A stretch of 64,000 nt of DNA, taken from contig LFSR01000004.1 in assembly GCA_001513155.1 (NCBI GenBank), positions 69,095-133,094 on the forward strand, read 5' to 3'. Positions 17,163-63,485 of this stretch are shown here, one piece after another. A program made the position numbers and the translations under genes. Under the pieces are notes generated by a model. The model worked only from the letters and a program-made list of their open reading frames with translations, was not told the DNA's origin and made no database searches. This DNA is from Syntrophomonas sp. DTU018. Its GTDB lineage: Bacteria; Bacillota; Syntrophomonadia; Syntrophomonadales; Syntrophomonadaceae. Position 1 is the first letter of the stretch. Each line of letters opens with the position of its first letter.

Positions 17163-18674
17163 ATGCAATCCGCCCTTTTGATGGATCACGAGGAAAAGGT
17201 AAACAACAGTCTATTTTACGTTTTTTCCCTGGCATCGACGGCTTTTTTTCTGCTAATAGTCCTAGTACTGCATGTCCCCATTATCAGAAGTGCCAGTATT
17301 CTCCTGGGCGTGGCAGCAGCCATACTGGCCCGCCTGCTCAGCAAAGGCAAATATAAGCATCTTCAGAAGTATCTTTACGTGCTGGTGATGTCTGCTCTAA
17401 TAACCGGCATTTTTATCGCTTTAGACCAGGCTAATCGCGGAGTAGTATTTCTTCCTTTCATAATTCTCATTGCCGCAGCTATGTATTATAACACCCGATT
17501 AGTAGCCTTTTATGTAGCTGTCACCTTCCTTTTCAATGGACTGGGTTTTGTATTAGCCCGGGGAGCTTATCTGGCCAATTACCCACCTTCATTTTGGCTT
17601 TTCTGCCCATTGCTGTTCATAGTAGCTGCGGTTTTGGCCATCTTTTTAGTACATAAGGCCAGTGAGCTCATAATGTTAGCTGCCTCAAAGCAGAAGGAAG
17701 CTGATGAGCTGACTTCCATGTTAAGGGAGACCTTGAGCAATGTATCAGCTCATAGTGCGTCAACTTTAACTATCAGCGAGGATTTGGCAGCCAGAAGCCG
17801 TGACATTACGGCCTTAATGGCCAATATTGCCCGGCAAACCAGTTTCATAGCCAGCGGTATGGAGGAAATATCAGCTTCCGCCCAGGAGATTTATGCTTCC
17901 AGTGAACAAGCCGATGCCATGTTGGATTCAATAAGAAAGGAAGTGGATAAGGCACGGGATGAGGCCCGGCAGATTGACGAAAGGGCGGAAGCAATACTGC
18001 AAAGAGCCACTGAATCACGCGAGGCAACTATGCAGCTTTTTGCAAGTATACATAAAGAAGTGGACCAGGCTATAGCTGAAAGCGGAGCAGTAGAGGAAAT
18101 ATCTGCATTAGCCGGGCAAATCTCGGATATAGCCAGCCAGACCAACTTGCTGGCATTAAATGCCTCTATTGAAGCCGCCCGGGCGGGAGAATATGGCCGG
18201 GGTTTTGCCGTGGTAGCCCAGGAAGTGGGAGCTTTGGCGGAAAAATCGGCGGTGGCTGTTCAGCATATCCAGGGAATGACCCAGCAGGTTTATCAAGTTA
18301 TGCATCGCCTCATCGACCAGTGCAATAACCTGCTGCGCTTTGTAAGTGAAGATGTAACCAGGGACCAGAAGATCTTGGAGGACGTAGGGCAAGCTTACAA
18401 AGGGGATGGAGAAATTATCTCCCATCTGACGGAAATGCTGCAGAACAGCATCTCATCGCTGGCCAACGGAATGCAGAATATTGTTAGGAGTATCGAGACC
18501 ACAGCTGCTACCATTGAACAGACTACGGTTAAATCAAAAGAGATTGCTGCCAGCAGTGAAGAAAGCTCTCAAGCGGCAGAAAGAATTGATGCTTTAGCTC
18601 AGCAAATGCAAGAGAATACTCGGCAATTAAACCAGCTTATGAGCGGCTTACAGCTCTCCACAATTTCTTCCTAA
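17163..18674 (+). CDS. Methyl-accepting chemotaxis protein without periplasmic domain
   Basis: Chemoreceptor of 503 residues. The first 170 or so residues form about six membrane segments with no sizeable extracellular sensor. A long coiled coil follows, carrying the conserved hairpin tip ([30 protein letters not shown]), then a C-terminal signalling helix. The sensing mode is probably via membrane or energy state. It precedes a duplicated terminator. Confidence 0.9.
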
Positions 18675-18707
18675 AACCAGTAGCATGAAACTGCATAATC
18701 TCATTAA

Positions 18708-18729
18708 ACGCCTGCAGTATTGCAGGCGT
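18708..18729 (+). repeat. First copy of MCP-gene terminator hairpin (duplicated)
   Basis: A 22-bp sequence forming a 9-bp stem with GTAT loop. It is identical to 18883-18904 but is not followed by a T tract here; the flank is GAGAG. It looks like one half of a target duplication made by the element at 18730-18882. Confidence 0.8.
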
Positions 18730-18882
18730 GAGAGTTTCAAAAAAGTTGCTAAAAGAGATCGCCACGTCGCTGCGCTCCTCGCGATGACATACCAAAAGGC
18801 CATCTTATGTGTCATTGCGAGCCCCGGAGGGGCGTGGCAATCTCGAACGTCTAACCGCTAAAAGACTTCTTTGACAGTCTGG
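18730..18882. mobile_element. MITE-like palindromic element A, ~153 bp
   Basis: Non-coding element lying exactly between two copies of a terminator hairpin. Its core is an imperfect palindrome: GAGATCGCCACGTCGC at the left and GTGGCAATCTC at the right. The outer ends are weakly inverted (GAGAGTTTCAAAAAAG versus, on the complement, CAGACTGTCAAAGAAG). The same architecture and length recur at 54757-54910, and core arms recur at 34.3-34.6 kb and 46.2-46.5 kb. No open reading frame. Probably non-autonomous. Confidence 0.75.
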
Positions 18883-18904
18883 ACGCCTGCAGTATTGCAG
18901 GCGT
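18883..18904 (+). terminator. Second copy of duplicated hairpin, functional terminator
   Basis: Identical 22-bp hairpin to 18708-18729, here followed by TTTTCCC, so this copy keeps the original T tract and probably ends transcripts from the chemoreceptor gene side. Confidence 0.75.
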
Positions 18905-18983: not shown

Positions 18984-20129
18984 ATGCGGCCCTGGAAAAG
19001 GCTAGCCTGGATTTTGATAGGCGTGCTGGCCTTTAATTTAGCGGTAGTCACCCCGGTACAGGCCGACCAGGTGGAGGTAGAAGCAGAAGCTTATATTCTC
19101 ATGGATGCCGACTCCGGCAAGGTTTTGCTGGCCAAAAATGAGCACAAGCGTCTTCCCCCTGCCAGTATGACCAAGCTGATGACCATGATTCTGGCAGCTC
19201 AGGATCTGGAAGAAGGCAAAGTTACTGTAAAAGATAAAGTGGTGGCCAGTGAAGAAGCCTGGAAAATGGGAGGTTCCCAGATATACCTGGAACCAGGAGA
19301 AGAAATGACTTTTGAGGATATGATGATCGCTATTGCGGTAGGTTCAGCCAATGATGCCTGCGTAGCTGTAGCCGAACACCTGGAGGGAACTCATCAGAAT
19401 TTCGTGGATCGCATGAACCGGCAGGCCAAAATGCTGGGACTGAAGAACAGTCATTTCGTAAACTCCTATGGACTGCCGGCGGAAAATCACTACAGCAGTG
19501 CCTATGACCTGGCAGTTATGGCCCGTTATGCCCTGCAGTATCCTAAAATCCTGGAATATACCTCTATTAAAGAATATAACTTGCGGCAAGGTGAATTTAA
19601 GCTTTTCAATACCAATAAGCTGTTATGGTGGTATGAAGGCACCGATGGCTTCAAGACCGGATGGACCAGTGAAGCCAAGTATTGCCTGACAGCCACCGCC
19701 AAAAGAGATGGCTTGCGCCTGATCGGGGTAGTGATGGCCTCCCCCAATCAGAATGGCAATCATCGTGACATGATGAAGCTATTCAATTATGGTTTTGCCA
19801 AGTATGCCTTCAAAAGCTTTTTCAGCCAGGGCAGTGTCTGCGGGGTGGTTCAGGTAGGCAAAGGTATCAAGGAAAGGGTGGAAGTGATTGCGGAAGAGGA
19901 TGTAGGGTCCATAGTAGAAAAAGGGCAGGAAAAGAAAATAACTATGGAAAAAAGACTCCCCGCCTATGTGGATGCCCCGGTAGTCCAGGGACAAAAACTT
20001 GGGGAAATCCGGGTCTATAATGACGGGGATTTGGTAAAAGAGGTAAATCTCGTGGCCGCTGAGGATATACCCCGCTCCGGATTGCTGAAAGAGATTTTGA
20101 AGATGCTTGCCGAAACCTATCTATTGTAG
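18984..20129 (+). CDS. dacF: D-alanyl-D-alanine carboxypeptidase (DacF/penicillin-binding protein)
   Basis: Exported serine DD-carboxypeptidase of 381 residues that trims peptidoglycan stem peptides. Signal peptide in the first 27 residues; active-site motifs SMTK (PASMTKLM), SAN (GSANDACV) and KTG (FKTGWT) are all present; a C-terminal beta domain and amphipathic end follow. It heads the spoIIA operon as in other endospore formers, supporting the DacF name and forespore-related expression. Confidence 0.92.
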   Translation: MRPWKRLAWILIGVLAFNLAVVTPVQADQVEVEAEAYILMDADSGKVLLAKNEHKRLPPASMTKLMTMILAAQDLEEGKVTVKDKVVASEEAWKMGGSQIYLEPGEEMTFEDMMIAIAVGSANDACVAVAEHLEGTHQNFVDRMNRQAKMLGLKNSHFVNSYGLPAENHYSSAYDLAVMARYALQYPKILEYTSIKEYNLRQGEFKLFNTNKLLWWYEGTDGFKTGWTSEAKYCLTATAKRDGLRLIGVVMASPNQNGNHRDMMKLFNYGFAKYAFKSFFSQGSVCGVVQVGKGIKERVEVIAEEDVGSIVEKGQEKKITMEKRLPAYVDAPVVQGQKLGEIRVYNDGDLVKEVNLVAAEDIPRSGLLKEILKMLAETYLL

Positions 20130-32519: not shown

Positions 32520-32538
32520 GCAGCAACAATAGTCTAAC

Positions 32539-32628
32539 TATGGTTCCTACGCTGGCATTACCCAGATCAGGTTCCAGGGTCAGGACAACACAGTCCACTC
32601 TCAGCCGGATTCTTCCAGCTCCCCTTTT
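32539..32628 (-). promoter_or_regulatory. TPP (THI-box) riboswitch
   Basis: Minus-strand sequence carries the conserved TPP aptamer blocks: GGGGAGC at the 5' end, CGGCTGAGAG, then GACCCTGGAACCTGATCTGG and GTAATGCCAGCGTAGG. It controls the thiamine-binding/ABC transporter operon, presumably switching transcription off when thiamine pyrophosphate is high. Confidence 0.95.
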
Positions 32629-32711
32629 TCGGTTAACCTCATTATAGATCCAGGTATTCCTCCGGTCAAATCAATTGTTGTAATTGGGCGGATAAATAAT
32701 TTAAATTAGAC

Positions 32712-34238: not shown

Positions 34239-34339
34239 TGCTGGTTTGCCTTGCCCGGCAAATTCCATTATGATAAAAACAGCATTTGTTACCTGCAGCA
34301 CCTGCCACGATGAATGAAAAGTGATCTTGCGTATCAGTG

Positions 34340-34638
34340 CTGTGAAAATAACTGCGCTGTGTACTTATGAGGAGCAAAGCGAAGTGGCGATCTGCTAACT
34401 CAAACCGTAAGAAAACATGGAGATTACCACGCCCTTCATGGCGCTCGCAATTTTCACCAGTAAAACAGGCCACGATAAACGAAAACTTAAGTCTGTCATC
34501 GCTATGAAAGGAATTCTTAATTGTCATTGCGAGCCCCGACGGGGCGTGGCAATCTCATTCATAATCAGCCGGGCTTACCGGTTGAGATCGCCACGTCGCT
34601 TCGCTCCTCGCGATGACACAGCGCAGTCATTTTCACAG
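34340..34638. repeat. Composite repeat element C with 23-bp terminal inverted repeats
   Basis: Terminal arms at 34340-34362 and 34616-34638 are inverted copies with one mismatch (CTGTGAAAAT then A/G then ACTGCGCTGTGT). Inside are four arms of the GAGATCGCCACGTCGC / GTCATTGCGAG family, two of them degraded (34364-34457) and two fresh (34520-34619). It occupies most of the 550-bp gap between trpB2 and trmK; no coding sequence is seen. Confidence 0.7.
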
Positions 34639-34675
34639 TAATGATACACCCGACGTGTCGGTGATACATTAGGAA

Positions 34676-34689
34676 GCTGTTTTCACAGC
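34676..34689. repeat. Solitary terminal-repeat copy before trmK
   Basis: GCTGTTTTCACAGC, itself palindromic, matches the TIR of elements C and D (GCTGTGAAAA). It ends 7 bases before the AGGAGG site of trmK. Confidence 0.5.
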
Positions 34690-34709
34690 AATTACAGGAG
34701 GGATTTGCT

Positions 34710-46152: not shown

Positions 46153-46173
46153 AAAGTGACCGTTTATGTCATT

Positions 46174-46457
46174 GCTGTGAAAATAGCTTTCATGTCAGTA
46201 AAAAGGCAACCATTGTGTCATCGCGAGCGCGTAGCGCGTGGCGATCTCTATGGCAACTAACGGTGTGAGTTAACAGATCGCCACGTCGCTTCGCTCCTCG
46301 CGATGACAAGCTTAAGTTTTCATTTATCGTGGCCTGCACCGCAGGTGATGATTGCGAGTCCAGCGAAGCAATCTCAAAAGAGGCTCATAGGCTGCGAAAA
46401 AGAGATCGCCACGTCGCTGTGCTCCTGGCGATGACACAAAGAAGCTATTTTCAAAGC
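46174..46457. repeat. Composite repeat element D
   Basis: Terminal arms GCTGTGAAAATAGCTT (46174-46189) and its inverted copy (46442-46457, one mismatch) enclose several GAGATCGCCACGTCGC / CATCGCGAG arms (46209-46250, 46278-46308, 46347-46375, 46403-46437). Same family as elements A, B and C. No coding sequence seen. Confidence 0.7.
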
Positions 46458-46512
46458 CATAACAGAAAAGAATCGTCTTTCCTGTCATGGCTTTGTGCTC
46501 GTATTTTATGAT

Positions 46513-54730: not shown

Positions 54731-54756
54731 GGAGAACCCGGCGAAAGGGTTCTCCT
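54731..54756 (+). repeat. First copy of tusA-locus terminator hairpin (duplicated)
   Basis: A 26-bp sequence (stem GGAGAACCC / GGGTTCTCC, loop GGCGAAA) identical to 54911-54936, here followed by CAGACTG and not by T bases. Confidence 0.8.
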
Positions 54757-54910
54757 CAGACTGTCGAGAAAGGCCATGTAAAGAGATCGCCACGTCGCTA
54801 CGCTCCTCGCGATGACAATACCGAAATCCATCTTATGTGTCATTGCGAGGCACGAAGTGCCGTGGCAATCTCGAACGCCAAACTATTAATCAGCTTTTTT
54901 GACTCGCTGT
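54757..54910. mobile_element. MITE-like palindromic element B, ~154 bp
   Basis: Same size and core (GAGATCGCCACGTCGC ... GTGGCAATCTC) as element A at 18730-18882. Its ends read CAGACTGTCGAGAAAG and, on the complement, ACAGCGAGTCAAAAAAG. It lies precisely between two exact copies of a terminator hairpin. No coding sequence. Confidence 0.75.
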
Positions 54911-54936
54911 GGAGAACCCGGCGAAAGGGTTCTCCT
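54911..54936 (+). terminator. Second copy of duplicated hairpin
   Basis: Identical to 54731-54756, followed by TATTTGTT. It retains the likely original downstream T-rich flank. It lies 29 bp before the CapA-like start. Confidence 0.65.
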
Positions 54937-63297: not shown

Positions 63298-63357
63298 GGG
63301 AATAGAATAAATGGGGAAATTACTCATGTTAAAATGAGTTGAGAAAGTTGAATAAAT

Positions 63358-63450
63358 GGTTCCGAGGTCATATTTCCTAAGGCCTGGCTATGGAAATGAC
63401 CCGTTAGGGTATATTGGGAAACTAGTATGCCTCCCGTCTGGAAAGGAGCC
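63358..63450 (+). promoter_or_regulatory. Molybdenum/tungsten cofactor (Moco/Wco) riboswitch
   Basis: P1 GGTTCC (63358-63363) with GGAGCC (63445-63450), GAGG with CCTC, and the strongly conserved GCCTCCCGTCTGGAAAGG block (63429-63446), which matches my memory of the E. coli moaA leader. A GAAA tetraloop (63418-63421) and an 11-nt receptor (CCTAAG at 63376 and TATGG at 63389) are both present, as in the Moco RNA fold. Mo versus W subtype is not decided. Confidence 0.85.
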
Positions 63451-63485
63451 TTTAACTCACACCATCAATCAGGTTGTGGTGCCGT

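Follow-up and report, generated by a model that had tools for sequence, protein, structure and literature searches.

In most DDE transposons, a given enzyme produces target duplications of nearly constant length. The IS1182 family is listed in ISfinder with very variable repeat lengths. That members of this family target hairpins was known previously. IS1272 and TnSha1, both of the IS1182 family, insert into inverted repeats, many of them terminators, with no sequence preference (PMC5678879, PMC4923244). Insertion of IS1272 removes and replaces the target hairpin without any duplication, as found by Wan and colleagues (PMC5678879), and TnSha1 removes the hairpin in the same way (PMC4923244). 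Duplication of a whole stem-loop has been drawn as a possible, hypothetical pathway for the family (PMC5678879, Fig 13b). For ISCbo5, another member, the available text of its description gives all insertion sites but one as hairpins at gene ends, probably transcription stops (PMC3098183). Duplication of a whole hairpin by a MITE was not found described in the literature searched, which lay mostly outside subscription journals and ISfinder. This is the arrangement at the locus analyzed here.

The elements and their hairpins in the window

The window, which is the whole stretch of 64,000 nucleotides that was analyzed, belongs to contig 30 of an assembly with 59 contigs and 2.56 Mb in total (G000). 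At locus A the 22-bp sequence ACGCCTGCAGTATTGCAGGCGT occurs in two exact copies, 18708-18729 and 18883-18904, situated 153 bp apart, as the earlier note had described, and both copies are perfect hairpins. Its observation that the distal copy alone keeps a T tract was also borne out, TTTT following the right copy only. The note took the 153 bp between the hairpins as the element. The spacing is correct, but when family members are compared the element is seen to span 18730-18881, a length of 152 bp, with ends GAGAG.../...GTCTG. The G at 18882 is best read as the first base of a 23-bp duplication, with a single mismatch against the A at 18707. Locus A is situated between the 3' end of the gene at 17163-18674 and the gene at 18984-20129, which from their translations appear to be of the chemotaxis type and of the D-Ala-D-Ala carboxypeptidase type, respectively. 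A scan of the 64 kb for duplicated hairpins gave just two pairs, the second being at locus B (54731-54936), where the hairpin is GGAGAACCCGGCGAAAGGGTTCTCCT. The features of the two loci are:

18707-18729 (+): left copy of the target hairpin, locus A; exact over 22 bp and, if one mismatch is allowed, 23 bp long; not followed by a T tract
18730-18881 (+): MITE, non-autonomous, IS1182-type, locus A, 152 bp; based on about 40 related cores in the same genome and on comparison of copies
18730-18746 (+): left terminal inverted repeat, GAGAGTTTCAAAAAAGT; family form GAGAGTGTCAAAAAAGT
18752-18848 (+): internal imperfect palindrome, GATCGCCACGTCG...TGTCATTGCGAG...GGCAATCTC
18865-18881 (-): right terminal inverted repeat, CAGACTGTCAAAGAAGT, sequence as on the minus strand
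18882-18904 (+): right copy of the target hairpin, locus A; T tract retained 3' of it
54731-54756 (+): left copy of the 26-bp target hairpin, locus B; sequence different from the locus A hairpin
54757-54910 (+): second MITE, of another subfamily, locus B; left end CAGACTGTCGAGAAAGG
54911-54936 (+): right copy of the 26-bp target hairpin, locus B

The locus A element has the properties of a MITE: it is short and non-coding, has imperfect 17-bp terminal inverted repeats, and is dispersed, with 48 members examined in one genome, most of which have a target-site duplication at both ends. It contains no IS1182 transposase gene and is too short for one, and it is therefore filed as an IS1182 derivative and not as an IS.

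Parts of the internal palindrome also occur outside the locus A type of MITE, as a separate repeat. Two larger composite repeats in the window (34338-34690 and 46163-46468) have ends like GCTGTGAAAATAGCT / AGCTATTTTCACAGC; they contain the TGTCATTGCGAG core palindromes, lack the MITE ends, and are probably a second element family with the core in common. Other genera of the family have many copies of part of the core palindrome (GCCACGTCGC...) that lack the ends of this MITE (L056, L057, L058 and L059, in genomes G008, G013, G031 and G028, respectively). Rfam places a TPP riboswitch at 32527-32635 (-) and a molybdenum cofactor (Moco) RNA motif at 63348-63464 (+) of the window.

Copies in the genome and their targets

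The element core has about 40 matches in its own genome, and longer variants were added by an end-based search. In 42 of the 48 family members examined, the two ends of the element adjoin copies of a duplicated sequence of 16 bp or more. Upon pairing the left flank of one locus with the right flank of another, a duplication was found in 1 of 2256 combinations, showing that the duplications at the loci are not due to chance. They range from 16 to 35 bp with a mean of 25.3 bp, and 22 are exact. In nearly all cases the duplicated unit is the whole local hairpin, with its limits at the two feet of the stem, and the sequence of this hairpin varies from locus to locus. The stems are poor in the copy tested at L021, L031, L035, L036 and L043. 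Among the six members that failed the duplication test is L007, where one hairpin stands on either side of the element but its two copies differ in length by one base.

A T run and/or an A run lies beside the hairpin in 38 of the 42 duplicated targets, and the published targets of IS1272 and ISCbo5 are mostly terminators (PMC4923244 and, in the text available, PMC3098183). Both facts speak for a possible, though rather unlikely, reading in which the target is the terminator as a working unit, offered by a paused RNA polymerase, transcription-induced supercoiling or a lagging-strand fork hairpin, and not a cruciform in resting DNA. Duplication of the hairpin would then reflect where the two strands become accessible. 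However, 4 of the 42 targets have neither run, and the orientation of the element is not significantly tied to the direction of the terminator (18 versus 11 relative to the T/A runs, p = 0.26). An orientation bias was dropped from consideration on the same figures.

Hairpin duplication also occurs around MITEs outside this family. In G346, a genome from another Bacillota family, there are MITEs with a different interior and with ends CAGACTGTCAAAAAAGTG / CAGCGTGTCGATAAACT, several of which have the local hairpin duplicated. Examples are duplications of 22 bp (C14:90313/90550), 29 bp (200860/201315), 25 bp (233247/233414), 23 bp (300751/301030) and 24 bp (407732/408116). Metagenome phage contigs carry hairpin-duplicating MITEs as well (L356, L358, L382, L386, L388 and L474). 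Searching genome contigs with a 15-base end pattern, which is too short and gave mostly chance matches, yielded as exceptions the copies L124, L149 and L182 in a related Bacillota MAG.

IS1182 relatives and the mobilizing enzyme

PF13751, PF05598 and PF01609 had no match in G000, an assembly from which repeats longer than 1 kb may be missing. No autonomous element with exactly the ends of the MITE was found in the genome itself or in 54 genomes of the family, and the search over 63 genomes of the class and 399 of the phylum gave no autonomous partner in the genus or family. The IS1182 elements of the same bacterial family were not favored as the partner, their duplications being 4 or 9 bp.

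On phage contig L410 the end CAGACTGTCGAAAAAGT adjoins a hairpin and leads into a 496-residue transposase of the IS1182 family (NCBIfam NF033551, 407.7 bits where the cut-off is 270; PF13751, PF05598). Thermocaproicibacter and Subdoligranulum plasmid relatives have CAGCCTGTCGAAAAAG ends on hairpins. These autonomous ends are resembled by the MITE ends CAGACTGTCGAAAAAGG and CAGACTGTCAAAGAAGT, and the probable link of the MITE to IS1182 rests on this similarity together with the same target behavior. If an unrelated transposase family mobilized the MITE, and the IS1182-like ends and targets had converged, the failure to find an IS1182 gene in the window's assembly would be accounted for. This is improbable, because the subfamily end CAGACTGTCGAAAAAGG agrees with the L410 end in 16 of 17 bases and both groups duplicate whole hairpins.

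In Firmicutes and Proteobacteria, autonomous IS1182 elements, whose ends include CAGACTGTAGACAAA and CAGACTGCTGACAAA, gave 12 distinct insertions flanked by an exact duplication of the whole hairpin, 16-30 bp long. The duplications are 30 bp in Sutcliffiella, 24 bp in Peribacillus, 24 bp in Acetoanaerobium, 19 bp on a B. subtilis plasmid, 22 bp in Macrococcoides, 23 bp in R. leguminosarum, 21 bp in Providencia, 16 bp in K. oxytoca and 22 bp in E. faecium, with further Providencia insertions at 21, 20 and 28 bp. One identical Providencia IS is found at two different hairpins. The MITE has the hairpin target and hairpin duplication of these autonomous members, and, judged by sequence, autonomous elements with the same end type have the same outcome as the MITE. 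The Klebsiella IS, sought in E. coli genomes as a population test, had no match there.

In five autonomous elements the hairpins at the two ends differ, and two copies of ISEfa7 have no duplication. Complete but unlike hairpins at the two ends were seen at L066, L206, L027 and L034, and at L410, L504+L513, L505 and L506. Such elements were at first viewed as contradicting hairpin duplication. This was answered by the Providencia copies L525 and L526, which have the same left flank and different right flanks, with an exact duplication at L526: a later rearrangement can yield mismatched hairpins. The pair suggests recombination or adjacent rearrangement between copies.

In a transposase tree, in which long branches make the exact joins unsure, the hairpin-type enzymes fall together (fork support 92/93). 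The IS1182 relatives of this bacterial family, at which the duplications measure about 4 or 9 bp, lie elsewhere in it. Other IS1182 lineages are situated inside long GGCATGGGGACGGTTCTTTTGCC-type palindromes with duplications of 4 or 9 bp (L249-L254, L245 and L226, in G027 and G004).

Empty sites and the outcome of insertion

Fifteen reconstructed sites were searched for in three congeners. At nine loci (L001, L002, L005, L008, L009, L012, L016, L019 and L046), a single alignment to at least one congener spans both flanks and shows one hairpin and no element. The clearest case is L306, compared with L009 (89% identity); locus A itself is empty in G002 (L328 compared with L001, 72% identity). 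L022 and L024 were left out of this count, since in the congeners extra sequence lies between the two flanks. The single hairpin at the empty sites shows that the hairpin preceded the element and was doubled upon insertion.

In G001 the terminator of locus A is also filled, by a member of a longer subfamily that lies in the opposite orientation (L336 and L199). This filling is put together by a presumed join across two contigs that both end inside the element, and would mean either that the same target was hit independently or that an inversion took place. Near a contig end, the interior of the G001 MITE copies L195, L200, L201 and L203 is broken by sequence that we take to resemble the ends of a group II intron (CGTACGGTTCTGTGAGAGGG, reverse strand).

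Intergenic 3' ends are the safest sites, so that random insertion with long staggered cuts might populate terminators if selection kept such insertions as harmless. This is very improbable, as selection cannot set the limits of a 16-35 bp duplication at the stem feet in nearly every copy. That the hairpins are long variable ends carried along by the element, with nothing duplicated at the target, would look alike at a single locus, but it is refuted by hairpins that vary by locus and stand alone at the empty orthologous site, and there is practically no chance that it is true.

The preferred reading, with a probability of about 0.85, is that the MITE is a transposase-less derivative of the IS1182 family, moved in trans, and that its hairpin-length duplication results from joining at the base of the hairpin. 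An IS1182 transposase would bind an extruded hairpin or cruciform and act at the base of its inverted repeat, in most cases a Rho-independent terminator. The 3' ends of the element would be joined to two 5' feet, one per strand, at opposite feet of the hairpin. The stagger would thus be the whole hairpin, whatever its length or sequence, and gap repair would copy the stem-loop to give the target duplication. The comparison of copies and sites establishes, at the level of sequence, the family, the ends, the duplication of the local hairpin, its limits at the stem feet and the single hairpin at the empty sites. The substrate was probably an extruded cruciform or a single-strand hairpin; a cruciform and a hairpin formed during transcription or replication look the same in the sequence. 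The joining at two 5' feet is likewise inferred. The MITE copies of this genome were presumably moved by an IS1182 enzyme, none having been found in the assembly.

The earlier note had proposed that insertion recognizes a hairpin or cruciform and duplicates it. The two comparisons it called for, of copies across the genome and of empty sites in relatives, support this, and so do the independent MITEs, the phage-contig copies and the autonomous IS1182 relatives. It would have given up the idea had most copies lacked duplicates or had one hairpin recurred at every locus; most copies do carry duplicates, and the hairpins differ between loci and are single at empty sites. As for its claim that structure and not a fixed sequence is recognized, the duplication of locus-specific hairpins stands, and structure itself may be the cue.

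The chances are slightly better than even that, in one clade of IS1182 transposases, the secondary structure of the DNA is all that decides the target and joining takes place at both feet of an extruded hairpin, making the duplication length a property of the target and not of the enzyme. If true, this would be transposition measured by structure, with an outcome opposite to the hairpin replacement of IS1272, and common to ISs and MITEs and to Firmicutes and Proteobacteria. That the duplication length varies with the hairpin, over 16-35 bp, points to strand transfer directed by structure. The 48 MITE copies, the empty sites and the 12 autonomous insertions form a natural data set on a genome scale, and an element between two copies of one hairpin is a signature by which more can be found. 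Landing after genes, with a hairpin and T tract left in place, suggests multiplication at low harm.

In kind the element is ordinary: the IS family to which this MITE is assigned is known, and so is the preference of that family for palindromes. Its outcome, a duplication set by the target's own structure, with empty sites and cases across phyla, is unusual. Among its nearest known counterparts is the ISEfa7-like group of IS1182 (NF033551), which has the same end type (CAGACTGT...), hairpin targets and whole-hairpin duplication in the 12 autonomous insertions; the window element differs in being 152 bp long and without a transposase gene, its mobilizing enzyme not having been found in the assembly. 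The L215/L249 and L214/L253 types, from the same bacterial family, have the same transposase family and lie in several cases in long palindromes, but they duplicate about 4 or 9 bp within the palindrome and not the hairpin as a whole, and they stand apart in the tree. Bacterial MITEs in general are likewise short, lack an ORF, have terminal inverted repeats and target duplications, and are multicopy and intergenic (PMC10969869); the duplication length here is variable and set by the target hairpin, a case not named in the available portion of that account. ISCbo5 is likened by description and not base by base, the accessible part of its report speaking of a "surrounding hairpin" without stating a duplication (PMC3098183). 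IS1272 and TnSha1 share with the window element the inverted-repeat and terminator targets. The copies do not follow the IS1272 pattern of hairpin loss without duplication, the hairpin being on both sides in 42 of 48; in contrast to IS1272 and TnSha1, the family of the window element duplicates the hairpin.
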